Source: Bacteroidota bacterium (lineage in GTDB: Bacteria; Bacteroidota; Rhodothermia; Rhodothermales; UBA10348). Taken from it: DNA of 64,000 nucleotides. This document shows positions 5,886 through 39,378 of the stretch, in pieces. Below the pieces are notes generated by a model, which worked only from the letters and a program-made list of their open reading frames with translations, was not told where the DNA came from and searched no databases. The DNA is taken from contig JAJCYR010000059.1 of NCBI GenBank assembly GCA_029262775.1, positions 62,001-126,000 on the forward strand. The letters run 5' to 3'. Numbering within the stretch: the stretch's first letter is position 1; each line of letters begins with the position of its first letter. Made by a program: the position numbers and the translations under genes.

Positions 5886-5967
5886 GAATATGGCGTAACC
5901 TGTGGGGCGTGACGTCGTCTGAAGAACTTTGTATCTGAAGCATCCCATGAACCTGCCCACTCATGAC

Positions 5968-6663
5968 ATGATCCGACTTGAAAGCATCACGAAAGGCTAT
6001 TTGAATGGGTTCAGCCGCAGTTTTGTGCTGCGAAACGTGAATCTGTCCATCAACAGCGGCGAGTTTGTGTCGATCATGGGGCCGTCGGGGTCCGGCAAGT
6101 CGACGTTACTGCATATCCTGGGAATGCTCGACGAGCCGTCGAGCGGGGAGTACTGGTTCATGGACCAGCCAGCGCACCGCATGAACGAGCGGCAGCGCTC
6201 GGACCTGCACCGCCAGCACATCGGATTCGTATTCCAGGCATACCACCTGATCGATGACCTCACGGTGTACGAAAACCTCGAAACGCCACTGCTTTACCGC
6301 AAAATAAAGGGCAACGAGCGCAAGAGCCTGGTCGCCGAAATGCTGGACCGCTTCGGCATGGTGGCCAAGAAGGACCTGTTCCCGAGTCAGCTCTCCGGCG
6401 GACAGCAGCAGGTGGTCGGTGTGGCCCGGGCGCTGATCATGCAACCGAAACTCATTCTGGCCGACGAGCCGACCGGCAACCTGCACACCTCGCAGGGAGA
6501 GGTCGTGATGGACTGGTTCCGGAGGCTCAACGAAGAAGAAAACGTGACGGTCATACAGGTCACGCACTCGGACCACTGGGCATCGTATGGGAAGCGCGTC
6601 ATTGAACTGGTCGATGGACGCGTCGAGTCGGATTCGAACCCACCGGAGGCCATGGAGGGCTGA
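5968..6663 (+). CDS. orphan ABC transporter ATP-binding protein (MacB/LolD type)
   Basis: 231 residues from the ATG at 5968 (MIRLESITKGY, the usual family start); ATGs at 5929 and 5947 are alternatives. All ABC ATPase elements are present: Walker A GPSGSGKST, Q-loop FVFQAYHLI, signature LSGGQQQ, Walker B LILADEPTGN and the H-loop His in QVTHSDH. FVFQ...LTVYENLETPL and DEPTGNL are typical of the LolD/MacB/FtsE branch, which powers lipoprotein release, efflux or cell-division permeases. No permease gene is adjacent. The stop and the next gene's ATG share a base (TGATG at 6661-6665), so translation of the downstream GNAT/ATP-grasp gene is coupled to it, an unusual partnership. Confidence 0.9.
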   Translation: MIRLESITKGYLNGFSRSFVLRNVNLSINSGEFVSIMGPSGSGKSTLLHILGMLDEPSSGEYWFMDQPAHRMNERQRSDLHRQHIGFVFQAYHLIDDLTVYENLETPLLYRKIKGNERKSLVAEMLDRFGMVAKKDLFPSQLSGGQQQVVGVARALIMQPKLILADEPTGNLHTSQGEVVMDWFRRLNEEENVTVIQVTHSDHWASYGKRVIELVDGRVESDSNPPEAMEG

Positions 6664-23206: not shown

Positions 23207-24352
23207 TTACATATCAGTCGGCAGCAGCACCAGGGCTCCTTCGGACACCAGATCCGCCAGCAGCGAGCGGATCTCCGCGCTGCGAGGAATGTCGGTCGCC
23301 GTTGCCCCAGATACCGAACTGATGGCAGCGACCATGGGCTCGAGCGCCGAGTCGAGCTCGAGTTCCTCACCGCGCAGATACCAGACGAGGAGCGAATCCT
23401 GCACGGCGTACTGGCTCTGGTACCGGGCCGGTGCGGCAAGACGCGAGCCCGATTCAAGTGTCCCCATCAGCGCGCCCACCGACATGATCTCCGGTGTCGA
23501 TTCTTCGTCCGGCAGGCGGCGGGGCTCGGTCAGCAGCCGGCCCAGCGGGCGCTCTGCCTGTCGGGCTACATTCTCCATAAGTTCGCGGGCCCAGGCCACC
23601 ACGTCCGGGCTGAACCCACCAGGCGACGACGACGTTTGAAGATCCGGGTCCGCATAGCGCTCGCCGTCGGCCAGCATCATGAGCGCATTTTCCAGAAGGC
23701 CTCCGAGGATGTCAGCCGCCGATGGCGCCCGGCACCCCAGGGAATACGTCATGCACTCCCCGAGCGCAATGCCATGATGGGCATAACGGGGCGGAAGATA
23801 GACCAGATCGCCGGGCTCGACCGCCCAGTCATACTCGGGCTCGAACTGGGTAAGAATCCGTACGTCCAGGTCCGGAACAAGCGTTTCGTCCGCCACCGGC
23901 TCGCCGCCAATCAGCCACCGGCGCTGGCCGTGTCCCTGCAGCAGGAACACGTCATACGCATCGATGTGCGCCCCGACGCCGCCCCCATCGGACGCCAGGC
24001 TGACCATGATGTCGTCAAGCCGCCAAGCGGGCAGAAAATCCAGATGTTTCCAGAGCTCTCGCACCCCTGTATGGAGCTGATCCACCTCCTGGATGAGCAT
24101 GCTCCAGACAGAGGCTGGCACTGGATCCAGCTCCCGGGCTTCAAACGGTCCTTCCACGAGCTGCCACGGATAGTCGCCACCCTCTTCGAGGACGAGCCGC
24201 ACCTGCACGCCTTCCCGGGTCGCCAGCTCCCGAAACGCTGTAGGCGTCAGGGGCGGCTCGAAGGAGGGTGCGGCGCCGCGTACAAGAAGCGGCTTTTTCT
24301 GCCAGTATTCGGACAGAAACTCGTTGGCTGTCAGCGATCCAAAAAAACCCAT
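23207..24352 (-). CDS. JmjC/cupin ribosomal oxygenase-like protein (YcfD/RoxA family)
   Basis: 381 residues from the ATG at 24352 (MGFFGSLTANEFLSEYWQKK). The Fe(II)/2-oxoglutarate facial triad is visible: H129 and D131 in GAHIDAYDVFLLQ and a second His around 192-193 in YLPPRYAHHGIA; spacing matches the E. coli uL16 arginine hydroxylase YcfD. The N-terminal FLSEYWQKKPLLVRG is the standard ROX signature, followed by a dimerisation and winged-helix C-terminal part. It probably hydroxylates a ribosomal protein residue. Its ATG shares one base with the stop of the upstream zinc-ribbon gene (TGATG). Confidence 0.88.
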   Translation of the reverse strand: MGFFGSLTANEFLSEYWQKKPLLVRGAAPSFEPPLTPTAFRELATREGVQVRLVLEEGGDYPWQLVEGPFEARELDPVPASVWSMLIQEVDQLHTGVRELWKHLDFLPAWRLDDIMVSLASDGGGVGAHIDAYDVFLLQGHGQRRWLIGGEPVADETLVPDLDVRILTQFEPEYDWAVEPGDLVYLPPRYAHHGIALGECMTYSLGCRAPSAADILGGLLENALMMLADGERYADPDLQTSSSPGGFSPDVVAWARELMENVARQAERPLGRLLTEPRRLPDEESTPEIMSVGALMGTLESGSRLAAPARYQSQYAVQDSLLVWYLRGEELELDSALEPMVAAISSVSGATATDIPRSAEIRSLLADLVSEGALVLLPTDM

Positions 24353-24561
24353 CAGAATATCCGGTCCAGTATCCACATGAGGGGTAGAATGAGCAGGCAG
24401 GCGAAAAGCCACGCCATCCACCTCACCGCCGGCTTCTGCGGGGGGAATTCGTAGTGGCACCAGGGACAGGTTTCATGGCCCGCCTCTACGTGCAGTCCGC
24501 ACGACGGGCATTCCTGTTCGGGAAACTCGTCAGCCTTGTCGGAAATATCTACGAGGCGCAT
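24352..24561 (-). CDS. small zinc-ribbon membrane protein
   Basis: 69 residues from the ATG at 24561 (MRLVDISDKADEF); an upstream ATG at 24618 adds 19 residues. A zinc ribbon with two CxxC pairs (CPSCGLHVEAGHETCPWC) precedes one C-terminal membrane helix (MAWLFACLLILPLMWIL). Likely a membrane-anchored metal- or nucleic-acid-binding small protein; role unknown. Translationally coupled to the JmjC gene by TGATG. Confidence 0.75.
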   Translation of the reverse strand: MRLVDISDKADEFPEQECPSCGLHVEAGHETCPWCHYEFPPQKPAVRWMAWLFACLLILPLMWILDRIF

Positions 24562-24624: not shown

Positions 24625-25188
24625 CTATCGGACAGCCACGATGTACGCTTCAACCTCGACCGCATCGTCCACAAGCGCATCCATGGTACCCAGGTCCAGA
24701 TCGAATGCGCTGCGCGAGAGTGTATACCGCGCTTCCATGCGGAGCGTATCGGCCGAGATGGCGTACCGGATGGACTCGGGATGCATGGGCCGCTGCTGGC
24801 CCCGGATGGTCAGGAACCAGCCCTCGGACGTGGCATCGACCAGAATGAACGGATGGGAAGCGGCATCCAGAAAGGGTTCCGACCGAAGGGAGCGGTCACG
24901 GAGCCGGTTGTCGGTATCAATGCGTGCTACCGGAATGCGGACGTGTCCGCGGACTGATGCCGGAGTGGACATCGGCGTGCGATCAGCCAGGTGTATGTCC
25001 CCTTCCATGCCCGGAATCTGGCCGTCCACCTCCATGAATCCCATGTGGACCGCGTGGAAGGTGACGTGGCTGTGCTCGGGAACGATCTGCCAGGCGGAGG
25101 CGGTATCGTTCAATCGGACGGGCATGGCCGCGACCCAGAACGCCATGCCCGTCCCCATGACGAATGAGAGCAGGGATGAGGCTCTCAT
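24625..25188 (-). CDS. YceI-like periplasmic protein (divergent)
   Basis: 187 residues with an N-terminal signal-like segment (SLLSFVMGTGMAFWVAAMP). The YceI lipocalin-like pattern is recognisable: WQIVPEHSHVTFHAVHMGFMEVDG, RIPVARIDTDNRLRDRSLRS followed by FLDAASHPFILVDAT. YceI proteins bind isoprenoid chains inside a beta-barrel; the ligand here is unknown. It overlaps the preceding, longer YceI gene by one base (TGATG at 25186-25190), so the two are translated together as a tandem pair. Confidence 0.8.
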   Translation of the reverse strand: MRASSLLSFVMGTGMAFWVAAMPVRLNDTASAWQIVPEHSHVTFHAVHMGFMEVDGQIPGMEGDIHLADRTPMSTPASVRGHVRIPVARIDTDNRLRDRSLRSEPFLDAASHPFILVDATSEGWFLTIRGQQRPMHPESIRYAISADTLRMEARYTLSRSAFDLDLGTMDALVDDAVEVEAYIVAVR

Positions 25189-25805
25189 CAGTCAATCATG
25201 ATGGCGAGAACGTTGATTTCGATTTCGACGTTGTTACCAACGAAATCGCCCCCATTGGAAAGTTTACGGCTGAACATGATGCCGTAATCCTGGCGGTCGA
25301 TGGTCAGTTCTCCGTGGATACCAATCGTAGTCAAACCCGTCGGATCGACAAACGGACGCTTGAATTCAAAAGGGAATTCCACGGTTTGTGTAACACCGTT
25401 GATGGTGAGTTCGCCCTGGGCGACCCCACCTTCTATGGAACGCGTCTCGAACGTGATGGTGGGGTGCTGCTGCACATTCAGGAAGACCGCACTGGTCACG
25501 GCTTCGAAGCGACCTTTCGACTGGCCCAGATAAACGCTGTTCGTCGGAATGGACACAACGGCAGTCACGGGCTCCCCGGACTCGGCATCGACCTCAATAA
25601 TGCCCTCCACTTTTTCGAAGGAGCCAACGACGGAGACCATCGTGAAACGGTCCACCTTGAAGGTAACAAAGGAGTGCTCCGCGTCGATTTCATACGCCAC
25701 CATATCGCGGGAATCCGCGGAGCCGATCGTCGCAGAAGGTAACGGGAGAACGGCCGGCATGGGCGCTGCCGCAAGGGCCAACAGGAGGGAAAATAAAATC
25801 CGCAT
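25188..25805 (-). CDS. YceI family periplasmic protein
   Basis: 205 residues with a signal peptide (MRILFSLLLALAAAPMPA). YceI signature YEIDAEHSFVTFKVDRFTMVSVVGSF, then SIPTNSVYLGQSKGRFEAVTSAVFLNVQQHPTITFE, and the closing TIDRQDYGIMFSRKLSNGGDFVGNNVEI are textbook for the family. It forms a lipocalin-like barrel holding a polyisoprenoid. The D-Y-G-I/M-x-x-x and NNVEIEIN tail are complete. It lies 61 bases downstream of the LytTR regulator gene and may belong to the same transcript. Confidence 0.93.
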   Translation of the reverse strand: MRILFSLLLALAAAPMPAVLPLPSATIGSADSRDMVAYEIDAEHSFVTFKVDRFTMVSVVGSFEKVEGIIEVDAESGEPVTAVVSIPTNSVYLGQSKGRFEAVTSAVFLNVQQHPTITFETRSIEGGVAQGELTINGVTQTVEFPFEFKRPFVDPTGLTTIGIHGELTIDRQDYGIMFSRKLSNGGDFVGNNVEIEINVLAIMID

Positions 25806-25866
25806 GGGTTGTTCTGGTTGGGTTCATAATGAATATGACCGCTCTCACGACCCGTGCCCTGCCCGG

Positions 25867-26625
25867 TTACCTTTCCTGTGACGAGGATGCGCGGCGATGG
25901 GATGAAAGGTGCTCCCGTATGCTTTTCCGGTGCGATCGGCTGGCCGCGACCTGGACTCCGTTGCGTAGTTCCAGGACATACGCGCCGCTTCCCGTCGGCC
26001 GGAATTCGCGGACGGCGGCCAGGCGCACCATGGCCGATCGGTGCACGCGCAGGAAGAACGGTGGTCCCAGGCGCTCCTCCACCTCGTGCATGGTCGAGCG
26101 AAGAAGGTGCTTACGCCCCCCTTCGTGCAGCACCAGGTAGTTGCCGGCCGACTCAATCCAGTCCACGTCGCGCGCCGGTACCACGGTGACGCGCCCTCCG
26201 GTCACGACGTGGAAGCGCTCGCCGAGCGCCTTGATCCGATCGAGCACACGCTCCGAGCCGTGGCCAAGCAGCATGGACCGGGCGTGCGCGACCGCACGGC
26301 GGAATCGCTCCCGGTCGTAGGGTTTGAGCAGGTAGTCGAGCGCGTGCACGTCAAACGCCTTGAGGGCGTACGTATCGTGCGCTGTCACGAAGATGATATA
26401 CGGAAACTCGCCGTCGCCCAATTCCTCTACCACATCGAGACCCGACATGCCGGGCATTTGGATGTCGAGAAACACCAAATCGGGCGCGTACGTGCGGATC
26501 GCGGCGAGCGCCGCAGGGCCCGACCCGCACGACGCCAGGAGTTCAATGTCCCTTTCCTCTGACAGCAGGCGCCGCATGCGGTCACGCGCGAGCGGCTCGT
26601 CATCGACAATCAGTGTACGAATCAT
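25867..26625 (-). CDS. LytTR-type response regulator
   Basis: 252 residues. Receiver domain 1-~120: acidic pocket VDDEPLARDR, phosphorylated Asp in DLVFLDIQMPG, Thr in IIFVTAHDTYA and Lys in DYLLKPYDRERF. The C-terminal ~110 residues are a LytTR DNA-binding domain (VDWIESAGNYLVLHEGG, FLRVHRSAMVRLAAVREF, GVQVAASRSHRKSIREHL). It should bind direct repeats upstream of its targets. The ATG overlaps the stop of the sensor kinase (ATGA at 26622-26625), the classical arrangement of LytS/LytR pairs. Targets not visible; the downstream YceI pair is a candidate. Confidence 0.95.
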   Translation of the reverse strand: MIRTLIVDDEPLARDRMRRLLSEERDIELLASCGSGPAALAAIRTYAPDLVFLDIQMPGMSGLDVVEELGDGEFPYIIFVTAHDTYALKAFDVHALDYLLKPYDRERFRRAVAHARSMLLGHGSERVLDRIKALGERFHVVTGGRVTVVPARDVDWIESAGNYLVLHEGGRKHLLRSTMHEVEERLGPPFFLRVHRSAMVRLAAVREFRPTGSGAYVLELRNGVQVAASRSHRKSIREHLSSHRRASSSQER

Positions 26626-27728
26626 GGGTTTTCCCGCGCGTGGCCTGTCAAGCGGATGGCCACCAGATTTCCCTCCACCTTGAGGTGGGCCGCATCTCCA
26701 TAGAGCTGCGCCAGACGCGACTGCGTGTTTGAAAGACCTATACCGAACGAAGATTCGGGCGGCACGCCCGGGCCGGTATCGCGCACCGACAGGCAGAGCA
26801 CGCTGGCTTCAAGACGCGACATGACTGTGATCCGCCCCGGCCTGTCGAACGGTGCAATGCCGTGCACCACCGCGTTTTCCACGAGTGGTTGCAGGATCAG
26901 GGCTGGTACCGGAAGAGTTTCGGTTTCGGGCTGAACGTCCAGTTCAATCGACAACCGGTCCCCGAAACGCGTCTCTTCGATTTCCAGGTAGGTCCGTATG
27001 AAGTCCATTTCTTCCGCCACCGGAATCAGCGACCGGGTGTCCGAGTCCAGTGACCGCCGGAGCAGGTGACTCAGACGGGCTATCATCTGTTCGGCCCGGT
27101 CGGGACACGCAGCGACGAGCGCACTGATGCTGTTCAGCGTATTGAACAGGAAATGCGGCCGCAGCTGCGCGCGCAGATTCTGCAGGCGGGCATCGGAAAG
27201 ATCCCCCTGAAGCCGCTGATTGGCCAGTTCCTGTTCTTTGGACTGCCGGTAGTACCGGATCCCGAGGTAGACACCCATGATGACCCAGAAGGTGAAGAGG
27301 GCATCGAAACTCTGAATCGGGAGGAGCGACAGCAGGCGCCCAAGCTGCGCATGATAAACCTCTTCCGTTATGATACCGGCTGTGTACATTCCCCCGGACC
27401 GGACGAGCGTCGATACGACGACCTGCAGCGGAGCAACCACAAGGGACAGCCCAACGAGACGAAGGACATTTCCGGTTCCGCCCTCATTTCCGCCCTCATT
27501 TCCGCCGATGGGCCAGCGCCGGGCCGCCGCGAATATGAGCGGGGACAGCAGGCCCCACACGTACCAGTACCCCAACTGGTAAATCAGCGGCGCCCCGAGC
27601 CGCGCCTCATTCCCTTGGGCAACGTAGGTCAGCACGCTCTGCAGCGTAAAGAACAGACCGAGCGACGTCCAGAGCATGAATTGCCCTGAGACCCTCCATA
27701 ACGCGTGTCGGATGGCTGGCGAAAACAT
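26622..27728 (-). CDS. LytS-like sensor histidine kinase
   Basis: 368 residues from the ATG at 27728 (MFSPAIRHALWRVSGQF); a further upstream in-frame ATG (27893) extends into the next gene's promoter. Four to five membrane helices occupy residues ~15-175, then a His_kinase domain with the phosphoacceptor in LRPHFLFNTLNSISALV, LILQPLVENAVVHGI (N-box) and RDTGPGVPPESSFGIGLSNTQSRL (G-boxes). Two 12-base repeats at 27479-27502 encode GGNEGGNEGG in a cytoplasmic or periplasmic loop. Forms a two-component system with the LytTR regulator. Confidence 0.93.
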   Translation of the reverse strand: MFSPAIRHALWRVSGQFMLWTSLGLFFTLQSVLTYVAQGNEARLGAPLIYQLGYWYVWGLLSPLIFAAARRWPIGGNEGGNEGGTGNVLRLVGLSLVVAPLQVVVSTLVRSGGMYTAGIITEEVYHAQLGRLLSLLPIQSFDALFTFWVIMGVYLGIRYYRQSKEQELANQRLQGDLSDARLQNLRAQLRPHFLFNTLNSISALVAACPDRAEQMIARLSHLLRRSLDSDTRSLIPVAEEMDFIRTYLEIEETRFGDRLSIELDVQPETETLPVPALILQPLVENAVVHGIAPFDRPGRITVMSRLEASVLCLSVRDTGPGVPPESSFGIGLSNTQSRLAQLYGDAAHLKVEGNLVAIRLTGHARENP

Positions 27729-27872
27729 GTCACAGACTACGCGCGTCCGGGACAAATGGCAAGTGAGGTGGGACCGATAGCCATGCGACGGGGACAGGCC
27801 GGCAGCGGCTCCGATGTAGCGCCAGGGCAGCTCCTTTGGATCTGCACCCGCTTTCAGCGGTTCGAGGCCCGG

Positions 27873-28745
27873 ATGAATGTCATGTCGCAACAAGAATGGA
27901 CGTCAGCTACCCGCCGGCATACCGCGCGGGTGGCCCGACTTGTGGATGCGCACGTCGAGCGGAGGGCCCGCCACGAGAAGGACCCGGTGGCGGACTTCCT
28001 GTTCGAATACTACCGGTTCCGCATGGCGCACCTGCGGGCATGGTCGCCGGGCGTGGGCGTGGAACTCGCTCTTCCAGGGAGACCGGACGCGGTTACCGGC
28101 GTATGGATTCCGGGTAGCGATGGACACATCCGGCTCGATCCGACGCGCATACCGGCGCATCGACAGAGTGGATTCCGGTTCATTCGGGAACTGCTCGTCA
28201 GAACGGCCGAGCGGCCGCCGCTCTACGGCTGCGCAGGCATGCACGAGTGGGCCATGGTCTACGGCGGGAGTGCGAGGCGCCACGAAGGGGTCCCGCTCCG
28301 GCTGTCGTGCCAGGAAGTGGACCGTGTGGTCGAGGATGTAGGGCCGCGCTGTACACATTTCGACGCCTTGCGCTTCTTTTCCGAGCCCGCCCGGCCCCTC
28401 AACGCGGCGCAGTTGACGCGCGGCGATATACTCGGCGCCGAGCAGCCGGGGTGTCTGCACGCGAATATGGATCTCTATAAATGGGCATACAAGGGGTGGC
28501 CCTGGATCGGGTCGGATCTGGTGGTGGATGGCCTGGAACTCGCCTTTGAAATCCGCGAACTGGATATGCGCGCGAGTCCGTATGATCTTCGCGCGCAGGG
28601 ACTTGAGCCCGTACGCGTCGAAACGCCCGAGGGCCGTGCCCACTATGCGGCGCGGCAAAAGGTGTTCTGCGATCGGGCGCAGGGGCTGAGGCAGCGCCTT
28701 GTGGCTGCGTGGGATCGCGTGCTGGACGCCCAGAAGTCCGTGTAA
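27873..28745 (+). CDS. conserved protein of the family often labelled '3-methyladenine DNA glycosylase'
   Basis: 290 residues from the ATG at 27873 (or 27882). Highly conserved blocks are recognisable: GCAGMHEWAMVYGG, FDALRFFSEPARPLN, EQPGCLHANMDLYKWAYK, EIRELDMRASPYDL and PVRVETPEGRAHYAARQ. Homologues with these blocks are widespread in actinobacteria, where they carry the product name 3-methyladenine DNA glycosylase. I see no helix-hairpin-helix, no AlkA/Tag/AAG motif, so that name is doubtful. The conserved H, C, D and K residues suggest an enzyme. Function unknown. Confidence 0.8.
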   Translation: MNVMSQQEWTSATRRHTARVARLVDAHVERRARHEKDPVADFLFEYYRFRMAHLRAWSPGVGVELALPGRPDAVTGVWIPGSDGHIRLDPTRIPAHRQSGFRFIRELLVRTAERPPLYGCAGMHEWAMVYGGSARRHEGVPLRLSCQEVDRVVEDVGPRCTHFDALRFFSEPARPLNAAQLTRGDILGAEQPGCLHANMDLYKWAYKGWPWIGSDLVVDGLELAFEIRELDMRASPYDLRAQGLEPVRVETPEGRAHYAARQKVFCDRAQGLRQRLVAAWDRVLDAQKSV

Positions 28746-28808: not shown

Positions 28809-30122
28809 ATGACGGTCCTATTCCGGTTGCGCGTCCGCTGGCTGCGCTTCCAAATGCCGCGCGTGCCTACGTTCTTCTGCATCGCTCCGATTCTCCCGGC
28901 GTTTCTGCTGCTCATTTTCTGGCCGGTTTTTGTCCCAGCCGCCGACGCCCAGGCTCAGCGGCGCGCCGACAGGGCAAGCCGGAACATTGATGTCCGGGCC
29001 CAACTGCCCCTTGGCGGGCAGGACGCGCTGCGGGCGGTATATCTGGACCAGCATCCGGAGCGGGCGCTGGCCTACGCAGCCGGGCCCGGCGCCTGGCATG
29101 TGGTTGACGTCGCTGACGAAACGCAGCCACGCGCCGTGCATACCGAGCGCACGTCCGGACAGACCTGGCTCGCGATTGACGGGTTTCGCCACAGCGGCAG
29201 CAGCCTTCTGGTGCTGGGCGGATCCGGACTCGAGGTGTGGAACGTCACAGATCCCGCCAGCCCGAAGCTGGTGGTCCGGCTCGATGCGGCGCTTTCCGGC
29301 GACGCTCGCGTCCAGAACGTATTTGCCTACCGATCGGGTAGCCGAGCCAACTGGCTCTTTGTCGCGGCCGGCGGGGACATCCTGGTCTACGATATCGACG
29401 CGGCGCTGACGGGCTCCCCGGAGCCGTACGCGCGGATCGGCCTACCAGAGCCTGTGCCGAACGTGGACTACGGATTCCACGATGCCTGGGCCGCCTTCCA
29501 TGCCGACACGGAGACCGACCGGCTGTACGCCTCCGGAGCCGGTGGATACTACATTTTTGACATAACGGACATGCGCCAACCCCGGCTTGTTACCGAGGTG
29601 AACTCGGCGGCTGTCCAGGTGGGCCGCTCCATCCGGGCTACGCCCGACGGGACCCACCTGGTGACGACGGCAGGCTACGAAACGGCCCCCATTCGGATTT
29701 TCGACATGCGCCCGGCCCTCGACGGCACGGTACCCGTCATGCGAACGGCGGTGGGCGCCTGGACCGCCAACTGGCGCCGGCCCGTCGAACGACATGTCGT
29801 CCGGTGGCCCTTCATTTTCGTGGCGGCCTTTGAAGAGGGCCTGCAGGTGGTCAATATGATGGACCCGGTAGCGCCCTATACCGACGCCTTCTTCCGGACG
29901 TGGCAGGGACCCGTGCCAGCGCCAGGCCAGGAGCCTGTTGGCGCGCGCGACGTGGACGTACGCAATCGTGACGGCCTGATAGCCATCGCCGACCAGAACG
30001 AAGGCCTGTTCCTGTTCCGGATTGAAGCCTTTCACGGCTGGGATGGCCGCGGCTGGGGACTACCCAACGTGAGCGACGTACAGGACTGGGAAAGCGGACC
30101 AATGGAAAACCTGTCATGGTAA
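28809..30122 (+). CDS. LVIVD-type beta-propeller protein, paralogue 1 (divergent)
   Basis: 437 residues from the ATG at 28809 (28854 possible). A signal peptide ends near ADAQAQ. Repeats of the type VWNVTDPASPKLVVRL, YIFDITDMRQPRLVTEV and LQVVNMMDPVAPYTDAF are LVIVD beta-propeller blades. It is the first of six tandem paralogues and the most divergent: the positions that in the others read GGFHN, GHTFTP and HNHE are VQN, VGRSIR and ERHV, so three of the four shared His sites are lost while the FHD site (GFHDAWAAFH) is kept. It may be a structural or regulatory partner. Its stop overlaps the next start by 7 bases. Confidence 0.8.
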   Translation: MTVLFRLRVRWLRFQMPRVPTFFCIAPILPAFLLLIFWPVFVPAADAQAQRRADRASRNIDVRAQLPLGGQDALRAVYLDQHPERALAYAAGPGAWHVVDVADETQPRAVHTERTSGQTWLAIDGFRHSGSSLLVLGGSGLEVWNVTDPASPKLVVRLDAALSGDARVQNVFAYRSGSRANWLFVAAGGDILVYDIDAALTGSPEPYARIGLPEPVPNVDYGFHDAWAAFHADTETDRLYASGAGGYYIFDITDMRQPRLVTEVNSAAVQVGRSIRATPDGTHLVTTAGYETAPIRIFDMRPALDGTVPVMRTAVGAWTANWRRPVERHVVRWPFIFVAAFEEGLQVVNMMDPVAPYTDAFFRTWQGPVPAPGQEPVGARDVDVRNRDGLIAIADQNEGLFLFRIEAFHGWDGRGWGLPNVSDVQDWESGPMENLSW

Positions 30123-31489
30123 AAAAGTCACTACTGCTTGCTGCCTTCGTTCTGATGGGCTCGGGCCTGCCGGCCCTCGCCCAACTCGGCATTGAACAAC
30201 CCCCGCATCCACCCCCGCCAGGAGAGCGGGGGTCGTCCAACATCACCGTGCTCTCTCATATTCCGCTCGGCGCTCCGGGAAGTGTCTCGGACATCGAAAT
30301 CGAGCAGGAAATGGACCGGCCCTACGCCTACGTGGCGCGCCGTATAAACGAGATCGGTTTCGACATCATTGACCTGTCCGACCCCGGGCAGGCGCGCGTT
30401 ATCCACCGCTGGCGCATTGAGGACCAGGAACTGCACGTGGGAGGTGCCATGGACGGACGGTATTTCGCATGGGACGGCCGTGTCTATTACGTGCAGTCCA
30501 TGCAACTGCGCCAGAGTGGTCCGAACTCGGACGTCGGAGCTGTCGTGTTCGATGTGACCGACCTTCCAGGGTCGTTCAAGGAAGTGGGACGCATCCGCCA
30601 GTCAGAGACGCCAGGGGGCTTCCATAACATTTTCATGTACGAGCACTCCAGTGGAAAGCCGCTGCTTTTTGCCACGTCCGGGCAGCATGCCAAGGTATTC
30701 GACATGGCCCGGTTTGTCGATGGCGACCCGTCCGAAATGGAAAACGTCCTCCGGGATGAGAACCGCGAGCTGATCGGCATGGTGCCTGTGGCCGAGTCCG
30801 AGAACATGTGGTCACGCGGATACCACGACTTCATGGTGCAGTACCATGCTGAGAGTGGTCAGGACCGTTTCTACGGCGGCGGTGGTAGCGGTTTTTACGT
30901 GTATGACGTAACCGATCCGGCATCGCCCAACCTGCTCACCAAAATCCTGGACGTGCCCGGCGTGTCCTGGGGACACACGTTCACGCCCACGCCCGATGGT
31001 AATTTTGCCGTCGGCGAGACCGAGTTCCAGTACCAACCACTGCGCATTTTCGACCTGCGCCCGGGCCTCAGCGGCGAGGTAGACAAGATTGATCATGCGG
31101 TAGGGTACTGGCAGGCCGATTGGCGCGCCCTGGCCCACAACCACGAAATGCGCTGGCCGTACGTGTTCGTTTCGGGCTACGAGACCGGACTCGGCGTGTT
31201 CAACATGGCCGATCCCACGAATCCCTATACGGTCGCCTATTACGATACCTATAACGGGGTCCATAATGATCGGCAGGCCGCCCTCGAGCGCCTCGGCAGT
31301 CCTTACACCTGGAATGTGTACGATGGCGCCTGGGGCGTTGACGTACGCAATGCAGACGGACTGATCGTGATTTCCGACATGACGACCGGATTCTGGGCCT
31401 TCCGCATGGACGGCTTCCTCGGTTGGAACGGCGCCGACTGGGGCATGCCCAATGAATCATCCGCCCAGCGCAAATTACTTGACGACTGA
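30116..31489 (+). CDS. LVIVD-type beta-propeller protein, paralogue 2
   Basis: 457 residues; signal peptide MVKKSLLLAAFVLMGSGLPALAQ. Blades contain FDIIDLSDPGQARVIHRW, FYVYDVTDPASPNLLTKI and LGVFNMADPTNPYTVAYY. It keeps all four His sites shared by the array: PGGFHNIFMY, RGYHDFM, WGHTFTP and LAHNHEMRWPYVFVSGY, and the closing NADGLIVISDMTTGFWAF. Compared with paralogues 3-6 it has an insertion of ~15 residues before the last blade (QAALERLGSPYTWNVYD). Secreted, probably periplasmic or released; biochemical role unknown. Confidence 0.85.
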   Translation: MVKKSLLLAAFVLMGSGLPALAQLGIEQPPHPPPPGERGSSNITVLSHIPLGAPGSVSDIEIEQEMDRPYAYVARRINEIGFDIIDLSDPGQARVIHRWRIEDQELHVGGAMDGRYFAWDGRVYYVQSMQLRQSGPNSDVGAVVFDVTDLPGSFKEVGRIRQSETPGGFHNIFMYEHSSGKPLLFATSGQHAKVFDMARFVDGDPSEMENVLRDENRELIGMVPVAESENMWSRGYHDFMVQYHAESGQDRFYGGGGSGFYVYDVTDPASPNLLTKILDVPGVSWGHTFTPTPDGNFAVGETEFQYQPLRIFDLRPGLSGEVDKIDHAVGYWQADWRALAHNHEMRWPYVFVSGYETGLGVFNMADPTNPYTVAYYDTYNGVHNDRQAALERLGSPYTWNVYDGAWGVDVRNADGLIVISDMTTGFWAFRMDGFLGWNGADWGMPNESSAQRKLLDD

Positions 31490-31496
31490 GATCGAC

Positions 31497-32816
31497 ATGA
31501 AACGACATTCCTATCTTCTTTTTTTCGTACTCCTTCTTGTTGTGGGAGCTTCGTCGGCATTCGGACAGGCCACCGAGCTCAAGCGGGGGTCTGACAACAT
31601 GGAGGTCCTCGGCCACGTTCCGCTGGGCAAAACCTCCAGCGTCACCGACATGGAACTCGAGCAGGAGCTTTCCCGGCCATACGCCTACGTCAGCCGGGCA
31701 TCCATTGTTGACGGCGGTCCCAAAGGCATGGACATCATTGATCTGTCGGATCCGGCCAAGCCGAAAGTCATCCTGCGCTGGCGCCTTGAAAACCAGGATC
31801 TGCTCCAGAACCGCGGTGGCATGGACGTGAAGTACTTCAAGGTGGACGGCCGGTACTATGTGGTCCAGTCGTTCGAGTTCGGCAGCGGTCCCTTCAGGGA
31901 GCTCGGAGCCGTCGTTTTCGACGTGACCGGCCTTCCAGACCCGTCGAAGGTCATTGAGATCGCCCGTCTGGAAGAGCCCGAGCACCCGGGTGGCTTCCAC
32001 AACATTTTTATCTACAGGCACTCCAATGGCGGCACCTACCTGTTCGCGACAGTCCGAGGTGATGATGTCCGGGTCTATGACCTGGAGCGTGTCGTAACGG
32101 GTGACCTGGCCCGCGCCCACGTGGCCACCATTTCCAATCCCATGGAAGGCGTTTCGCAGACATCCTACCATGACATGTACGTTGGATACCACCCGGACAG
32201 TGGCGAGGATCGTTTTTATGGTGGGGGCACCGGCGGCTACTTCGTCTTCAACATCACGGATCTGCAGAACCCCGAGATCCGTGCCACATTGACGGGAATA
32301 AATGGTGTGGAGTGGGGCCACACGTTCACACCGAGCCCGGATGGCCGTTACGTGGTGGCCGAGGCCGAATACCAGTATGCACCGCTTCGCATTTTCGACC
32401 TGAAACCGGCGCTTGACGGTGAGGTCTCGAACATCCGCACTCCCATTTCGGCCTGGACCGCGAACTGGAAGAACCTCTCCCACAATCACGAAGTGCGCTG
32501 GCCGTATGTGTTTGTGTCCGGCTACCTCGACGGGCTGCAGGTCTTCAGCCTCATGGATCCCAGGAATCCGCAGACCGTGGGATACTACGACACGTTTATC
32601 GGAGACCCGGATACCGGTCTGAATGCCGTCATCAACGGCGCGTTTGGCGTGGATGTCCGCAACGAGGACGGCCTTATCGTGGTCAGTGACATGTCGACCG
32701 GCTTCTGGACCTTCCGCATGGAAGGGTTCAATGGCTGGAACGGCGAGGACTGGGGCCAGCCCAACGTATCGAGCGTCCAGAAATGGGACGAGAAGCCGAA
32801 GGACGGCACCCGGTAA
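31497..32816 (+). CDS. LVIVD-type beta-propeller protein, paralogue 3
   Basis: 439 residues from the ATG at 31497, which gives a signal peptide (MKRHSYLLFFVLLLVVGASSAFGQ); it lies 7 bases after the stop of paralogue 2. Domain layout as in its neighbours: SDNMEVLGHVPLGK, MDIIDLSDPAKPKVILRW, GGFHNIFIYRHS, SYHDMYVGYHPD, RFYGGGTGGYFVFNITDL, WGHTFTPSPDG, LSHNHEVRWPYVFVSGY, NGAFGVDVRNEDGLIVVSDM. It is closest to paralogue 5 (shared LTGINGV, DGEVSNIR, NLSHNHE, SSVQKWDE). Function not established. Confidence 0.87.
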   Translation: MKRHSYLLFFVLLLVVGASSAFGQATELKRGSDNMEVLGHVPLGKTSSVTDMELEQELSRPYAYVSRASIVDGGPKGMDIIDLSDPAKPKVILRWRLENQDLLQNRGGMDVKYFKVDGRYYVVQSFEFGSGPFRELGAVVFDVTGLPDPSKVIEIARLEEPEHPGGFHNIFIYRHSNGGTYLFATVRGDDVRVYDLERVVTGDLARAHVATISNPMEGVSQTSYHDMYVGYHPDSGEDRFYGGGTGGYFVFNITDLQNPEIRATLTGINGVEWGHTFTPSPDGRYVVAEAEYQYAPLRIFDLKPALDGEVSNIRTPISAWTANWKNLSHNHEVRWPYVFVSGYLDGLQVFSLMDPRNPQTVGYYDTFIGDPDTGLNAVINGAFGVDVRNEDGLIVVSDMSTGFWTFRMEGFNGWNGEDWGQPNVSSVQKWDEKPKDGTR

Positions 32817-32845
32817 TTTTTTACAGAACAACACATTCCAATCGT

Positions 32846-34222
32846 ATGAAACAGTTGATCCAGCGTTCATCGGTAGCCCGACTGCTTGCTGCCGCCATAT
32901 TCACGCTTGCCCTTTTCGCATCTGCCATCATGGCGCCTGCGGCCTTGGCCCAGGACGAAACTCCATGGACGCCGCTCAAGCCCGGCTCGGACAACATGGC
33001 CGTTGAAGGTCATATGCCTCTGGGTAAGCCGCTGAACACCATGGATCTGGACATAGAGCAGGAAGTGTCCCGGCCCTTTGTGTACGTCTCACGTGGAACG
33101 GTTGGCGAGGGCACGGAGCGTGGAACGGATATCATTGACATATCCGATCCCTCGAGTCCAAAAGTCCTCAAGCGGTGGCGGATTGAGAACCAGGAACTTC
33201 ACACGGGTCTGGGTGGCATGGACGTGAAGTATTTCAAGTGGAACGGCCGCTATTATGTGGTGCAGTCCACGCAGTTCGGGCCGGGCCCGAACAATGATCT
33301 CGGCGCCTACATCCTGGATGTCACGGGCCTGCCCGACGCGAATTCCGTGCGGGAAGCAGGGCGGATCCATGAGCCGGACCTGCCCGGAGGCTTCCACAAC
33401 ATCTTTGTCTACAAGCACTCGAATGGCCGCGTGTACCTGTTCACGACGGTATCCGGGCCGAACGCGCACATCTACGACCTCGGTGCCATTGTCGATGGTG
33501 ATTCGGACAAGGGATTCGTGGGCACGGTCCCCGTCCCACTTGCGGGCGGCGAGACGAGTGGCTCCTACCATGACCTCTACGTGGCATGGCACCCGGACAC
33601 CCAGGAAGACCGGTTCTATGGCGGTGGTACGGGAGGATATTATGTGTACGACGTGACCGACGTGGAAAACCCCGAACTCGAAATCACGCTCGCGGGTGTC
33701 ACCGGTGTGCGCTATGGACACACCTTCACACCGAGCCCTGATGGCCGCTATGTCGTCACGGAAACCGAATACCAGTACGCACCGCTGCGCATGTTCGACC
33801 TCAAGCCGGCACTTGACGGCGAGGTCACCAACATCCGCCAGCCCATTTCAGCCTGGACCGCCAATTGGAAGAACCTCGTGCACAACCACGAGGTGCGCTG
33901 GCCCTTCGTATTCGTATCGGGATACCACGACGGACTTCAGGTTTTTTCCTTGATGGATCCGGAGAACCCGGTCACGGTCGGCTATTTTGATACGTATACG
34001 GGTTCGCGCGATGCAGGCGTCATGGCAGGCGCTGTGGCCAACGGCGCCTTCGGCGTGGATGTCCGCAATGAAGACGGCCTGATCGTGATCAGCGACATGA
34101 CGACCGGATTCTGGACGTTCCGTATGGAAGGTTTTGACGGCTGGAACGGTGAAGACTGGGGCCAGCCGAATATTTCCAGCGCCCAGCAGTTTGACGAAGA
34201 ATCGAAAGAAGGAACGAAATGA
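32846..34222 (+). CDS. LVIVD-type beta-propeller protein, paralogue 4
   Basis: 458 residues from the ATG at 32846, chosen for the signal peptide ending APAALAQ (~residue 36). The mature protein begins DETPWTPLKPGSDNM, then blades TDIIDISDPSSPKVLKRW, AYILDVTGLPDANSVREA, YYVYDVTDVENPELEITL. His sites: GGFHNIFVYKHS, GSYHDLYVAWHPD, RYGHTFTPSPDG, LVHNHEVRWPFVFVSGYHDG. Closest to paralogue 6 (TDIIDISDP, QELHTG, NLVHNHE, SGYHDGLQVF). 29 bases after paralogue 3; its stop overlaps paralogue 5 by ATGA. Function not established. Confidence 0.87.
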   Translation: MKQLIQRSSVARLLAAAIFTLALFASAIMAPAALAQDETPWTPLKPGSDNMAVEGHMPLGKPLNTMDLDIEQEVSRPFVYVSRGTVGEGTERGTDIIDISDPSSPKVLKRWRIENQELHTGLGGMDVKYFKWNGRYYVVQSTQFGPGPNNDLGAYILDVTGLPDANSVREAGRIHEPDLPGGFHNIFVYKHSNGRVYLFTTVSGPNAHIYDLGAIVDGDSDKGFVGTVPVPLAGGETSGSYHDLYVAWHPDTQEDRFYGGGTGGYYVYDVTDVENPELEITLAGVTGVRYGHTFTPSPDGRYVVTETEYQYAPLRMFDLKPALDGEVTNIRQPISAWTANWKNLVHNHEVRWPFVFVSGYHDGLQVFSLMDPENPVTVGYFDTYTGSRDAGVMAGAVANGAFGVDVRNEDGLIVISDMTTGFWTFRMEGFDGWNGEDWGQPNISSAQQFDEESKEGTK

Positions 34223-35592
34223 ATCTCGCACAGACCCTCCTGCAGCCCCTCGTATCCCGGAAAGTTGTTACCGTCCTACTCGGCGCGATCCTGATGGCAT
34301 TGGCCATCACGGATCGCGCCGCAGCCCGGCAGGACGCGGTATGGACACCCATCAAACCGGGCTCCGACAACATGGAAGTGGTCTCGCACGTGCCGCTGGG
34401 CGGGCCGGAGAGCGTTGCCGATATCGAGTTGGAGCAGGAACTCTCCCGACCTTACGCCTACGTGGCAAGGGCACGTTTCAATGAAACACTCGCCATGGGC
34501 ATGGACGTGATGGACCTGACCGATCCTTCGAATCCCGTTGTCGCGCACCGGTGGCGCATTGAAAATGAGGAGTTGCATCTGGGACGTGGCGGACTCGACG
34601 TCAAGTATTTCAAGCATGCGGGGCGGTATTACGTCGTGCTCGCCGTGCAATTCCGGCCGGGTCCGAATTACGATCTGGGCGGCATTGTATTTGACGTAAC
34701 CGACCTGCCGAGTGGCAAACCGCCCGTTGAAGTAGCCCGGATTACGGAGCCGCAGAAGCCGGGAGGCTTCCATAACATCTTCATTTACAAGCATTCCAGT
34801 GGGCTTCCGCTGCTCTTTACGACGATCAGCGGGGACACGGCACACATCTATGACCTGTCGAAGGTCGTCTCGGGCGACGTAGCCAATGCCCGGATCGGGC
34901 AGGTTCCCATTCCGTCCGAGGGCGAGGTCACGCGTGCCTACCACGATTTTTACGTAGGATGGCATGAGGAAACGGAAAGCGATCGTTTCTACGGCGGTGG
35001 TTCCGGCGGATATTATGTCTATGACATCACGAGCCTTGAGAATCCGGAGCTGGTGGTTTCGCTGACTGGCATCAATGGCGTCTCGCGCGGCCATACGTTT
35101 ACGCCCGGACCCAACGGGCGCTATGTGATCGCCGAAACCGAATATCAATACGCTCCACTACGCATTTTCGACCTGAAGCCGGCGCTCGATGGCGAAGTGA
35201 GCAATATCCGTGCGCCCATCTCGGCGTGGACAGCCAACTGGAAAAACCTCTCGCACAACCACGAGGTGCGCTGGCCCTATGTGTTCGTCTCCGGCTACCT
35301 CGACGGGTTGCAGGTCTTCAGCCTGATGGATCCCGAGAACCCCCGGACGGTGGGCTATTTTGACACGTACACGGGTCCAGCCCTTGAACCGGGCAACGGC
35401 GGCGTCATGAACGGTGCATTCGGCGTCGACGTCCGCAATGCGGATGGCCTGATTGTGGTATCGGATATGATGACCGGCTTCTGGACCTTCAAAATGGAAG
35501 GGTTCGACGGGTGGAACGGTGCCGACTGGGGCGTTCCCGATGTATCGAGCGTACAGAAGTGGGATGAGGAATCCCGGGAGGGTTCGCGATGA
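34219..35592 (+). CDS. LVIVD-type beta-propeller protein, paralogue 5
   Basis: 457 residues. Signal-like N-terminus to about AAARQ (residue 38), then DAVWTPIKPGSDNMEVVSHV. Blades MDVMDLTDPSNPVVAHRW, GIVFDVTDLPSGKPPVEV, YYVYDITSLENPELVVSL; His sites GGFHNIFIYKHS, RAYHDFYVGWHEE, SRGHTFTPGPNG, LSHNHEVRWPYVFVSGYLDG. It most resembles paralogue 3. Overlaps both neighbours by ATGA (34219-34222 and 35589-35592), so paralogues 4-5-6 are translationally coupled. Confidence 0.87.
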   Translation: MNLAQTLLQPLVSRKVVTVLLGAILMALAITDRAAARQDAVWTPIKPGSDNMEVVSHVPLGGPESVADIELEQELSRPYAYVARARFNETLAMGMDVMDLTDPSNPVVAHRWRIENEELHLGRGGLDVKYFKHAGRYYVVLAVQFRPGPNYDLGGIVFDVTDLPSGKPPVEVARITEPQKPGGFHNIFIYKHSSGLPLLFTTISGDTAHIYDLSKVVSGDVANARIGQVPIPSEGEVTRAYHDFYVGWHEETESDRFYGGGSGGYYVYDITSLENPELVVSLTGINGVSRGHTFTPGPNGRYVIAETEYQYAPLRIFDLKPALDGEVSNIRAPISAWTANWKNLSHNHEVRWPYVFVSGYLDGLQVFSLMDPENPRTVGYFDTYTGPALEPGNGGVMNGAFGVDVRNADGLIVVSDMMTGFWTFKMEGFDGWNGADWGVPDVSSVQKWDEESREGSR

Positions 35593-36923
35593 GAACGCTG
35601 ATTTCGTTTCTTACCCTGTTCACGGTGACGTGGGCCGGTCTCGGCCCGGCCTACGCGCAGGAGCAGAACACCCCGTGGACGCCGCTTGAGCCAGGGTCGG
35701 AAAACATGGAAGTGGTTGGACACCTTCCGCTTGGCGCCGTGATGACGGTCGCTGACCTCGACATGGAACAGGAGTTGGAGAGGCCCTACGTGTACGTTTC
35801 GCGGCGGGCCCGGAACGAGAGTGTAGAGCGGGGCACGGACATTATTGACATCTCGGATCCGGCCCATCCCAAGGTCCTCTACCGGTGGCGCATTGAGAAC
35901 CAGGAACTGCATACCGGCGCCGGTGGCGTCGATGTGAAGCACTTCAAGTGGGACGGTCGGTATTACGTGGTGCAGGGCATGCAGCTCGGCACGGGGCCGA
36001 ACAACGACCTGGGCGCGGTGGTGCTCGACGTGACGGGCCTTCCCGATCCGGGCAGCGTACGCGAAGTGGCCCGCATTCACGCGCCAGACACGCCCGGAGG
36101 GTTCCACAATATTTTTGTGTACAGGCACTCAAACGGACGGGTCTATCTGATGACGACCCGAAGCGGGCCGGGGGCGAACGTGTATGATCTGGGCCGCGTT
36201 GTGAGTGGTGACGTGGACAACGCGCTCGTTGCCAATATTCCGGTCCCGGAGGGGGCGGGTAGCGGGCGCGGTAGTTATCACGACTTCTATGCCGGCTTCC
36301 ACGTCGACACGGACACCGACCGGTTTTATGGCGGCGGTGCGGGCGGCTATTACATTTATGACATATCCGACCTTGAGCGCCCGGAGCTGCTGGTAACCAT
36401 GACGGGCATTACCGGGGTCTCGAGGGGGCACACCGTCACGCCGGGACCCCGCGGACGCTACGTCATCACAGAATCCGAGTACCAATACGCTCCGCTGCGC
36501 ATCTTTGACGTGCAGCCAGCACTCGACGGCGAACTGATGAACATCCGTGCGCCCATCAGTGCATGGACCGCCCATTGGGAGAACCTGGTGCATAACCACG
36601 AAGTGCGCTGGCCCTACGTCTTCGTGTCAGGATACCACGACGGGCTGCAGGTCTTCAGTCTCATGGATCCGGAGAATCCCGTCACGGTCGGCTACTATGA
36701 CACGTATACAGGCCCGCGAAGCCTCGGGTCGATGGGAGGCAATGTGGGCAACGGGGCGTTCGGCGTGGACGTCCGGAACGCCGATGGACTGATCGTAATC
36801 AGCGACATGACGACCGGCTTCTGGGCGTTCCGAATGGAAGGATTCGATGGGTGGAACGGTACGGACTGGGGAATGCCCGACGTATCGAGTGCCCAAAAAT
36901 GGGACCAGCACCCGGCGCAGTGA
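35589..36923 (+). CDS. LVIVD-type beta-propeller protein, paralogue 6
   Basis: 444 residues with a signal peptide (MRTLISFLTLFTVTWAGL, cleavage near YAQEQ). Mature start NTPWTPLEPGSENMEVVGHL; blades TDIIDISDPAHPKVLYRW, AVVLDVTGLPDPGSVREV, YYIYDISDLERPELLVTM. His sites GGFHNIFVYRHS, GSYHDFYAGFHVD, SRGHTVTPGPRG, LVHNHEVRWPYVFVSGYHDG. Closest to paralogue 4. It ends the tandem array; a 102-base gap follows before the small secreted gene that precedes the multicopper oxidase. Confidence 0.87.
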   Translation: MRTLISFLTLFTVTWAGLGPAYAQEQNTPWTPLEPGSENMEVVGHLPLGAVMTVADLDMEQELERPYVYVSRRARNESVERGTDIIDISDPAHPKVLYRWRIENQELHTGAGGVDVKHFKWDGRYYVVQGMQLGTGPNNDLGAVVLDVTGLPDPGSVREVARIHAPDTPGGFHNIFVYRHSNGRVYLMTTRSGPGANVYDLGRVVSGDVDNALVANIPVPEGAGSGRGSYHDFYAGFHVDTDTDRFYGGGAGGYYIYDISDLERPELLVTMTGITGVSRGHTVTPGPRGRYVITESEYQYAPLRIFDVQPALDGELMNIRAPISAWTAHWENLVHNHEVRWPYVFVSGYHDGLQVFSLMDPENPVTVGYYDTYTGPRSLGSMGGNVGNGAFGVDVRNADGLIVISDMTTGFWAFRMEGFDGWNGTDWGMPDVSSAQKWDQHPAQ

Positions 36924-36990: not shown

Positions 36991-37027
36991 ATGGCGTAAA
37001 GGAGGATGAATCAGACTCTTACGCCAT
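36991..37027 (+). promoter_or_regulatory. hairpin enclosing the start of the next gene
   Basis: Perfect 9-base arms ATGGCGTAA (36991-36999) and TTACGCCAT (37019-37027) enclose a 19-base loop that contains GGAGG. The right arm includes the first two bases of the ATG at 37026. In the mRNA this could mask the start codon and SD-like sequence, or it may be a chance palindrome. Confidence 0.35.
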
Positions 37028-37631
37028 GAAACTCCCTGCCTTTCCTGTTCTTGGTGCGGCTGGCACACTGCTCTTCCTGGCCGCCTGGACGAGCCTTCCT
37101 GCGCCATTGGGTACCCCCCATGCGGCATCGTCGGGTACCCATGCACTATCGGCGGCCATTACATGTCCAGCCGTTGACCCCGATCCTCCCGTGTACTATG
37201 CCATTGACCTCGTAACCACGCGCAAGGTGCCCGGAGCACGCATGGCAGAAGGGCAGGGGAACGTAACCTTCGCCACGAGCCCGTTTGGGGTATCCATCTC
37301 GGAGAACGGTCAATATGTCTACAATCTGTCCATCACCATGGAAAATGTGCGCCTGCGCGCCGATCAGGCGCTCGATGTATGGGTGACCACACCCAACCTC
37401 GACGAAATCAGGCATATCGGGCGGCTCAACGAGCAGCTGCAGACGACCGGAAAGGTGGAGTGGAACAAGTTTCTGGTCGTTGTGACGCTCGAGTCAGCCG
37501 GTCAGGAGCCGGGCGACATGTGGACCGGCCCGATCGTAGCCCGCGGCATGTCCCGAAGTGGCCTCATGCACACCATGGCCGGTCATGGTCCGTTTCAAAC
37601 CGAGCCCTGTGCCGTATACGGCTACCGGTAA
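37026..37631 (+). CDS. secreted protein of unknown function upstream of the multicopper oxidase
   Basis: 201 residues with an N-terminal signal-like helix (FPVLGAAGTLLFLAAW). The central region ALDVWVTTPNLDEIRHIGRL followed by EWNKFLVVVTLESAGQEPGD and GPIVARG recalls the C-terminal domain of anti-sigma-K-like (RskA) proteins, where a similar strand pattern ends in VTxE...P.GP; this likeness is weak. The tail has MSRSGLMHTMAGHG (Met/His-rich) and two Cys. It lies 13 bases before the multicopper oxidase gene and is probably co-transcribed with it, so a role in copper or oxidase function is possible. Confidence 0.6.
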   Translation: MKLPAFPVLGAAGTLLFLAAWTSLPAPLGTPHAASSGTHALSAAITCPAVDPDPPVYYAIDLVTTRKVPGARMAEGQGNVTFATSPFGVSISENGQYVYNLSITMENVRLRADQALDVWVTTPNLDEIRHIGRLNEQLQTTGKVEWNKFLVVVTLESAGQEPGDMWTGPIVARGMSRSGLMHTMAGHGPFQTEPCAVYGYR

Positions 37632-37644
37632 ACCCAGCCCAAAA

Positions 37645-39378
37645 ATGGACATGCTCCTTCGTTTTATGCACGCCATTCCCGCAGGCGTCCTGTTGCTTGG
37701 TACAATTTCACCCGCCATCCTGCCCGGCGCGGCACATGCCCAGGACATGGACATGCACGCGGGCCACACCATGGACATGCCCGTCATGCAGGGAGACAGC
37801 GTGCTCTGGCGCATGCCGCCCATGAACATGTCCATGCCTATGCTGCCCGGAATGGAATCAGAGGTGCCCATTACGGCCGCGTACCTGCCCGGCGCGGGCC
37901 TGGATCCCATGTCCGTGCCCGAGGCCCGGCCCTTTGAAATAATGGACGTGGAGGACGGCGACACCATCCACCTGCAGGCCGGACTCGTCCGGCGCCAGAT
38001 AGGCGAGCAGACGCTCGTCATGATGGGATACAACGGACAGTATCCCGGCCCGTTGTTGCGCGTGAAGAAAGGCGCGAACATCAACGTGCACTTCGTCAAT
38101 GCGATAGACGAGCCCACGACCGTACACTGGCACGGCCTGCGCCTGGACGACTACCGCTTCGATGGCATTCCGGGCATATCCCAGGCGCCCGTCCAGTCCG
38201 GCGAAAGCTTTCTCTACAAGCTCAACTTCCCGGATACAGGACTGTACTGGTACCACCCTCACATGCGGGAAGACGTGCAGCAGGATTTGGGGCTCTACGG
38301 CAACATGCTGGTCAACCCTACCGAGGATGACTATTACGCTCCCGTGAACCGCGAGCAGACGCTCATTCTCGACGATATCCTGATAGATGCGAACGGGATC
38401 ATCCCCTACGGCAAAAGTGCACCCACGCACGCCCTCATGGGCCGCTTCGGAAATGTCATGCTGACCAATGGCGTGACGGACTTCTTCATGGGCGTTGAAA
38501 AGGGGGAAGTGATCCGGTTTTTCTTGACCAATGTGGCCAATTCGCGCACCTTCAACGTGGTTTTCGGAGGCAACCCCATCAAAATAGTGGCCTCGGATGT
38601 GAGCAAGTACGAAAAAGAAATGAGCGTGGGCAGTGTGGTCATTGCGCCGGCCGAGCGCTACATCGTGGATGTGCTGTTCGAGAACCCGGGAGAGTTCATG
38701 GTCACCAACACCGTGCAGGCTATTGACCACTTCCGCGGCGAGTTCTATCCGTCGGTCCACAACCTGGCCACCATCCACGTCTCGAACACGCCCGTGGATG
38801 TCTCCCATGCCAATGCCTTCCGGGAACTGCGTACGAACGAGGATGTGATTTCGGACATGGATGCCTTCCGGCCGTACTTCGACAAGGCGCCCGACAAAGA
38901 GCTGGAACTGACCGTGCGTGTGAACAACCTGCCGCTTCCGGTCATGCGCATGATGGAAGTCGACACGCTCTACGTGCCGCCCATCGAGTGGAACGACGCC
39001 ATGCCCATGATGAACTGGGTCTCCACAGGCGAACAGGTCAAGTGGCTTCTGCGTGAGAAGAGCACTGGCCGCGAATCCATGGACATCAAGTGGTCATTCG
39101 AGAAGGATGACGTGGTGAAGGTCCGGATATTCAACACGCCCCGATCGTTCCACCCCATGCACCACCCGATCCACTTCCACGGGCAGCGATTCCTGGTCAC
39201 GCACATTGATGGCGTGGAGAATCCCAACATGGTATGGAAGGACACGACCATCATCCCTGTCGGCTCGACGGTCGATATACTCGTGCACATGTCGAATCCG
39301 GGCACATGGATGGCGCACTGTCACATCGCCGAACACCTGCACGCCGGCATGATGCTCGCCTTCGAGGTAACGGACTGA
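37645..39378 (+). CDS. multicopper oxidase with Met/His-rich N-terminus
   Basis: 577 residues from the ATG at 37645 (signal peptide to AHAQ); the frame upstream overlaps the previous gene. Oxidises phenolic, metal or other substrates while reducing O2 to water. All four copper-binding motifs are intact: HWHG (161), WYHPH (204), HPMHHPIHFHG (503) and HCHIAEHLHAGM (558-569, fitting H-C-H-x3-H-x4-M, so the type 1 axial ligand is Met). Residues ~35-75 are rich in Met and His (MDMHAGHTMDMPVMQ, MPPMNMSMPMLPGM), as in copper-handling CueO/CopA-like oxidases. It follows the six-gene propeller array on the same strand. Confidence 0.92.
   Translation: MDMLLRFMHAIPAGVLLLGTISPAILPGAAHAQDMDMHAGHTMDMPVMQGDSVLWRMPPMNMSMPMLPGMESEVPITAAYLPGAGLDPMSVPEARPFEIMDVEDGDTIHLQAGLVRRQIGEQTLVMMGYNGQYPGPLLRVKKGANINVHFVNAIDEPTTVHWHGLRLDDYRFDGIPGISQAPVQSGESFLYKLNFPDTGLYWYHPHMREDVQQDLGLYGNMLVNPTEDDYYAPVNREQTLILDDILIDANGIIPYGKSAPTHALMGRFGNVMLTNGVTDFFMGVEKGEVIRFFLTNVANSRTFNVVFGGNPIKIVASDVSKYEKEMSVGSVVIAPAERYIVDVLFENPGEFMVTNTVQAIDHFRGEFYPSVHNLATIHVSNTPVDVSHANAFRELRTNEDVISDMDAFRPYFDKAPDKELELTVRVNNLPLPVMRMMEVDTLYVPPIEWNDAMPMMNWVSTGEQVKWLLREKSTGRESMDIKWSFEKDDVVKVRIFNTPRSFHPMHHPIHFHGQRFLVTHIDGVENPNMVWKDTTIIPVGSTVDILVHMSNPGTWMAHCHIAEHLHAGMMLAFEVTD

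Follow-up and report, generated by a model that had tools for sequence, protein, structure and literature searches.

Six tandem open reading frames of the forward strand, referred to as P1 to P6, occupy positions 28809-36923 of the window, which is the whole stretch of 64,000 nucleotides that was analysed. These frames are homologous over their whole length and tightly packed, with junctions that overlap or nearly do so (P1/P2 at 30116-30122, P4/P5 at 34219-34222 and P5/P6 at 35589-35592), and their N-terminal hydrophobic stretches resemble signal peptides, which suggests from sequence that the six proteins are exported. The genes of a small exported protein (SM) and of a multicopper oxidase are located directly downstream of P6. 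The features of the locus are collected in Table 1. The residue numbers used below (H163, H221, etc.) are those of the P4 fragment, counted from base 32909.

Table 1. Genes of the propeller array and its surroundings, with the positions of the main motifs in the window
Feature	Positions	Strand	Motifs	Remarks
JmjC_2 domain protein	23207-24460	-
Two YceI-like proteins, LytTR response regulator, histidine kinase	24625-27893	-		divergent from the array
346-aa protein	27705-28745			no Pfam match; directly before P1
P1	28809-30122	+	VQN 29310-29318, FHD 29475-29483, GRS 29622-29630, ERHV 29787-29798	first gene of the array; site-altered propeller paralogue
P2	30116-31489	+	FHN 30620, YHD 30821, GHT 30971, ETEF 31016, HNHE 31136	propeller paralogue
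P3	31452-32816	+	FHN 31995, YHD 32166, GHT 32316, HNHE 32481	propeller paralogue; likely true start ATG 31497
P4	32783-34222	+	FHN 33392, YHD 33566, GHT 33716, ETEY 33761, HNHE 33881	propeller paralogue; likely true start ATG 32846
P5	34219-35592	+	FHN 34768, YHD 34939, GHT 35089, ETEY 35134, HNHE 35254	propeller paralogue
P6	35589-36923	+	FHN 36102, YHD 36276, GHT 36426, HNHE 36591	propeller paralogue
SM	37026-37631	+		small exported protein without Pfam family
Multicopper oxidase	37645-39378	+		exported; ORF opens at 37558, likely ATG 37645

Conserved histidines and predicted fold

An earlier note on this DNA had claimed that five members of the array keep the motifs FHN, YHD, GHT and HNHE in matching positions and that three of the four are changed in P1. 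Both statements are borne out by the motif alignment: the four motifs fall in the same columns in P2-P6, and P1 presents VQN, GRS and ERHV in place of FHN, GHT and HNHE, with FHD at the position of YHD. P1 has lost three histidines in this way and keeps two, namely that of YHD and the second one of HNHE.

When species genomes were scanned, 77 loci were found, with 213 homologues above 150 bits, the window included. In a canonical set of 46 diverse relatives from Rhodothermales, Gemmatimonadota and Acidobacteriota, conservation is 100% at H163, H221, D222, H271, E285, E287, H325, N326 and E328, and 98% at H327. The same columns were followed in one Gemmatimonadota genome, of which 42 sequences were read, a few of them also among the 46 canonical homologues: H163, H221, D222, H271 and H325 are each present in 42/42, E287 in 39/42, E285 in 35/42 and H327 in 30/42. 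As H327 is kept in only 30 of these sequences and H325 in all of them, the universal histidine of HNHE is the first one, and the hard core of the putative site would consist of one histidine per motif (H163, H221, H271 and H325). Several copies from this genome keep the four histidines and have lost E285, E287 or H327, so that the proposed ligands do not seem to be equally essential. The genome, which is that of locus L061, is a groundwater Gemmatimonadetes MAG of 4.6 Mb with 79 matches to the propeller family, some of them fragments; many of these matches are in tandem, with the core histidines kept.

P4 was modelled with AlphaFold2 from the alignment of the 46 sequences as a seven-bladed β-propeller (mean pLDDT 91.5, pTM 0.90) in which DSSP recognises seven four-stranded blades, and P1 of the window is still modelled as a propeller (pLDDT 89); both models are confident. 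In the P4 model each of the consecutive blades 3-6 carries one of the four invariant histidines where its innermost strand, A, begins. In blades 3 and 5 the histidine (H163 and H271, respectively) precedes strand A by two residues; in blade 4 H221 is the second residue of this strand, and in blade 6 H325 is the third. E285 and E287 come after strand B of blade 5. In β-propellers the end of strand B and the start of strand A share a face, and both glutamates are thereby predicted on the same face as the start positions of the four histidines. From this secondary-structure register, the histidine positions on consecutive innermost strands would ring the mouth of the channel, and the layout of the four histidines with E285 and E287 is compatible with a metal site at one mouth of the channel.

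The check proposed in the earlier note was whether the histidine side chains meet in the central channel. The common strand-A register in blades 3-6 argues for this arrangement at the level of secondary structure, and a scattered or outer-surface placement is not what the register of the modelled topology shows. The same note had suggested a metal or catalytic site: the invariance of the histidines across phyla, their shared register and the face taken by E285 and E287 speak indirectly in favour of such a site, and it is from this pattern that we infer metal binding and catalysis.

The site-altered paralogue P1

The P1-like proteins, 27 in number, form one clan with support 1.0, on a long stem branch (0.65). 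In every case they open the array and a P2 orthologue comes next; the P2 orthologues form a clade as well (support 1.0). In one further locus (L087) P1 is cut by the contig end. No member of the P1 clade keeps H325 or E285 (0/27 each); E287 is kept in 4/27, H163 and H221 in 15/27 each, H271 in 12/27 and H327 in 14/27, and Asp stands in place of G382 in 21/27. Since H325 and E285 are gone in all 27 members, the defining loss of the clade is that of H325/E285; the FHN and GHT losses seen in P1 of the window vary among P1 lineages. When the canonical columns with at least 93% conservation are considered, P1 of the window keeps 2 of the 12 His/Glu columns versus 58 of the 93 others (Fisher p = 0.004, which is only indicative because the grouping of His with Glu was picked after the columns were seen), and 2 of 8 if the His columns are taken alone (p = 0.07).

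The dN/dS ratios are 0.09-0.11 for P1 versus 0.014-0.032 for P2, P3, P4 and P6, these ratios being rough, with dS near or above 1. P1 is an ancient clade under purifying selection. A pseudogene or decaying gene, which was also considered, is ruled out by the open frame, the dN/dS of about 0.1 and the confident fold.

P1 had been proposed in the earlier note as a non-catalytic partner. The partner half of this proposal is supported by the antiquity of the clade, its constant position next to the P2 clade and the purifying selection. The non-catalytic half is only likely, because the clade-wide losses are those of H325 and E285 only and the other histidines are lost in some of the members. Related to this, the new Asp at position 382 in 21 of the 27 proteins makes a rebuilt site also possible. 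The view of P1 that fits best is that of a P2 partner whose site is either broken or rebuilt. The recurrence of this site-altered protein provides a clean natural comparison of which residues matter and of whether mixed complexes form. Besides, a second propeller copy in a Gemmatimonas genome (locus L083, positions 5843-7279) has lost the histidine set independently of P1.

Linkage to SM and to a multicopper oxidase

SM has two conserved cysteines (C47 and C195) and the conserved motif MHTMAGHGPF. The multicopper oxidase is composed of three cupredoxin domains (Pfam Cu-oxidase_3, Cu-oxidase and Cu-oxidase_2) and contains all the ligand motifs for type 1, 2 and 3 copper, in which the ligand His, Cys and Met are invariant in 41-45 sequences. 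Near its N terminus there is a Met/His-rich region formed by a conserved HxxH and a WRMPPMxxxMPM-like stretch.

SM and the oxidase are found together in 45 of the 77 propeller loci and never singly. Where the flank is long enough (35 loci), they adjoin the propeller in 26 and are absent beside it in the other nine. Some propellers therefore sit away from any SM or oxidase genes; for these stand-alone copies no consistent partner was found among the neighbours scanned, and SM is encoded elsewhere in 10 of the 11 genomes behind them. In 60 relatives of the window's genome, propeller and SM are both present in the same 34 and both absent from the same 26, with a patchy distribution across the families of the order, so that the propeller is never without SM in the relatives searched, and it is often beside the copper oxidase. 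These 60 genomes are related and the co-occurrence does not represent 60 independent trials. The linkage of the propellers to SM and to a Met/His-rich multicopper oxidase is new here, and no paper joining LVIVD-type propellers with a multicopper oxidase was found in the library searched.

Known propellers and possible functions

Searches in Pfam, NCBIfam and PDB sequences for a named family of the array propellers returned only sub-threshold matches to the LVIVD repeat, to choice-of-anchor B and to 5hrm. The LVIVD repeat (PF08309) has its best score in the window with P2 (19.1 bits versus a gathering cut-off of 20.2), the other paralogues scoring 11-16 or giving no match, and choice-of-anchor B (TIGR04312) scores 20-58 bits, below its cut-off of 100. 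Both families are like the array propellers in their short repeats with '..V.DvsDP..P' strands, whereas their definitions do not include the invariant His/Glu set, the tandem array or the operon with SM and the oxidase. 5hrm is the haloalkylphosphorus hydrolase/phosphotriesterase of Sphingobium TCM1. According to the title of the paper that describes its structure, as cited in PMC11656708, it is a seven-bladed propeller that holds a binuclear metal centre. The AlphaFold2 model shares the seven-bladed fold of this type of hydrolase (Sb-PTE), with around 15% identity, and 5hrm is in the top fold matches listed.

Two other metal-binding propellers, with ligands contributed by successive blades, are of interest for the comparison. 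SBP56/SELENBP1 is a copper-dependent methanethiol oxidase, also seven-bladed, in which cavity histidines and acids are needed for copper and activity, the copper site being H137/H140/D189/E252 (PMC10362175). The topology of the array propellers would be compatible with SBP56-like copper binding in the central cavity. However, the ligands of SBP56/SELENBP1 belong to HXXH and HH motifs instead of coming as one His per blade; the Pfam SBP56 family gave no match in any paralogue (E <= 1) or in the 46 relatives (E <= 0.1), and SBP56/SELENBP1 is not among the 50 fold matches listed. On the other hand, AztD is a periplasmic zinc metallochaperone, an exported propeller whose three zinc-binding pore histidines (H124/H167/H218) come from successive blades (PMC6689063). 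It differs from the array proteins in having eight blades, a peripheral second Zn site and a zinc transporter context, whereas the P4 model has seven blades and a pore-type His ring only, no second site having been identified in it.

The propeller fold and a metal site in it are already known, since metal sites in propeller channels have been described in a few enzymes and one chaperone. The propeller family studied here, its array and its operon appear to be undescribed: in three bacterial lineages, a whole family that neither Pfam nor NCBIfam names at its cut-offs keeps its His/Glu set through heavy duplication. No experimental work on any member of the family was found.

The explanation that we prefer is as follows. 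P2-P6 would be exported (periplasmic or secreted) seven-bladed β-propellers in which blades 3-6 each give one invariant histidine (H163, H221, H271 and H325) to one channel mouth, and these four residues, with the nearby acids D222, E285, E287 and E328, would form a metal site. This site would most likely belong to a system of the cell envelope that is linked to copper and serves redox chemistry or metal handling, because the operon with SM and the Met/His-rich multicopper oxidase is conserved. The tandem paralogues may be variants with a common metal centre and different surfaces or substrates, and P1, ancient and selectively maintained, would most likely act as a structural or regulatory partner in contact with P2 and not as an active copy. 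Taken as a whole, copper-linked metal-site propellers with a site-altered partner have about an even chance of being the correct explanation. Copper is a first guess for the metal, drawn from the strict tie to SM, a Met/His protein, and the frequent tie to the copper oxidase, and could about equally well prove right or wrong, as the carboxylate-rich ligand set also suits Zn, Mn or Fe. The broader proposal of an undescribed three-part exported copper system, made of oxidase, SM and metal-site propellers, falls slightly short of an even chance; in it the propellers would have multiplied to 3-8 per operon, with one genome holding 79 matches, and one site-altered subunit would be obligate and pair with P2.

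The relation to 5hrm leads to a different view, in which the site would bind harder metals (Zn, Mn), one or two of them, and the exported propeller would be a metallohydrolase of the same kind as the Sphingobium phosphotriesterase, with the oxidase as a functional neighbour and not a redox partner. 5hrm is the top bacterial structure by sequence profile (E = 0.0025) and, among the matches listed, also by fold (E = 3.8e-11), although the profile match is weak and limited to the repeats. A His together with several carboxylates suits binuclear hydrolases, and the 79 matches of a single genome look like substrate diversification; nevertheless, neither the strict co-occurrence with SM nor the copper-oxidase linkage would be expected for a stand-alone hydrolase, and this view is considered unlikely. 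Those same neighbours, with the conserved MHTMAGHG of SM and the Met/His-rich N terminus of the oxidase, could instead indicate a metal store or chaperone that hands copper to the oxidase or to SM, in the way in which AztD, a propeller with a three-His pore site, hands zinc to its partner from a second site. That second site is peripheral and no equivalent was found in the array propellers, and 3-8 paralogues per operon, or 79 matches per genome, would be odd for one chaperone task, which makes a chaperone rather improbable.

It could also be argued that the His/Glu set plays a structural part, in hydrogen bonding or in closing loops, or that its ligand is organic and not a metal, and that P1 has merely drifted: invariance just as strict is seen in many Gly, Pro and Trp columns, some of which are also lost in P1. 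Nevertheless, P1 loses the site residues more than the other invariant columns (by the indicative test mentioned above) with its fold intact, and the same set has suffered independent and recurrent losses, both in the second copy of L083 and in the L061 copies without E285, E287 or H327; a structural role is thus very unlikely. As regards the other genes listed in Table 1, the JmjC_2 domain protein recurs near the array in 15 further loci, the 346-aa protein has the same place in 11 other array loci, and the histidine kinase and the LytTR regulator recur in two further loci only.
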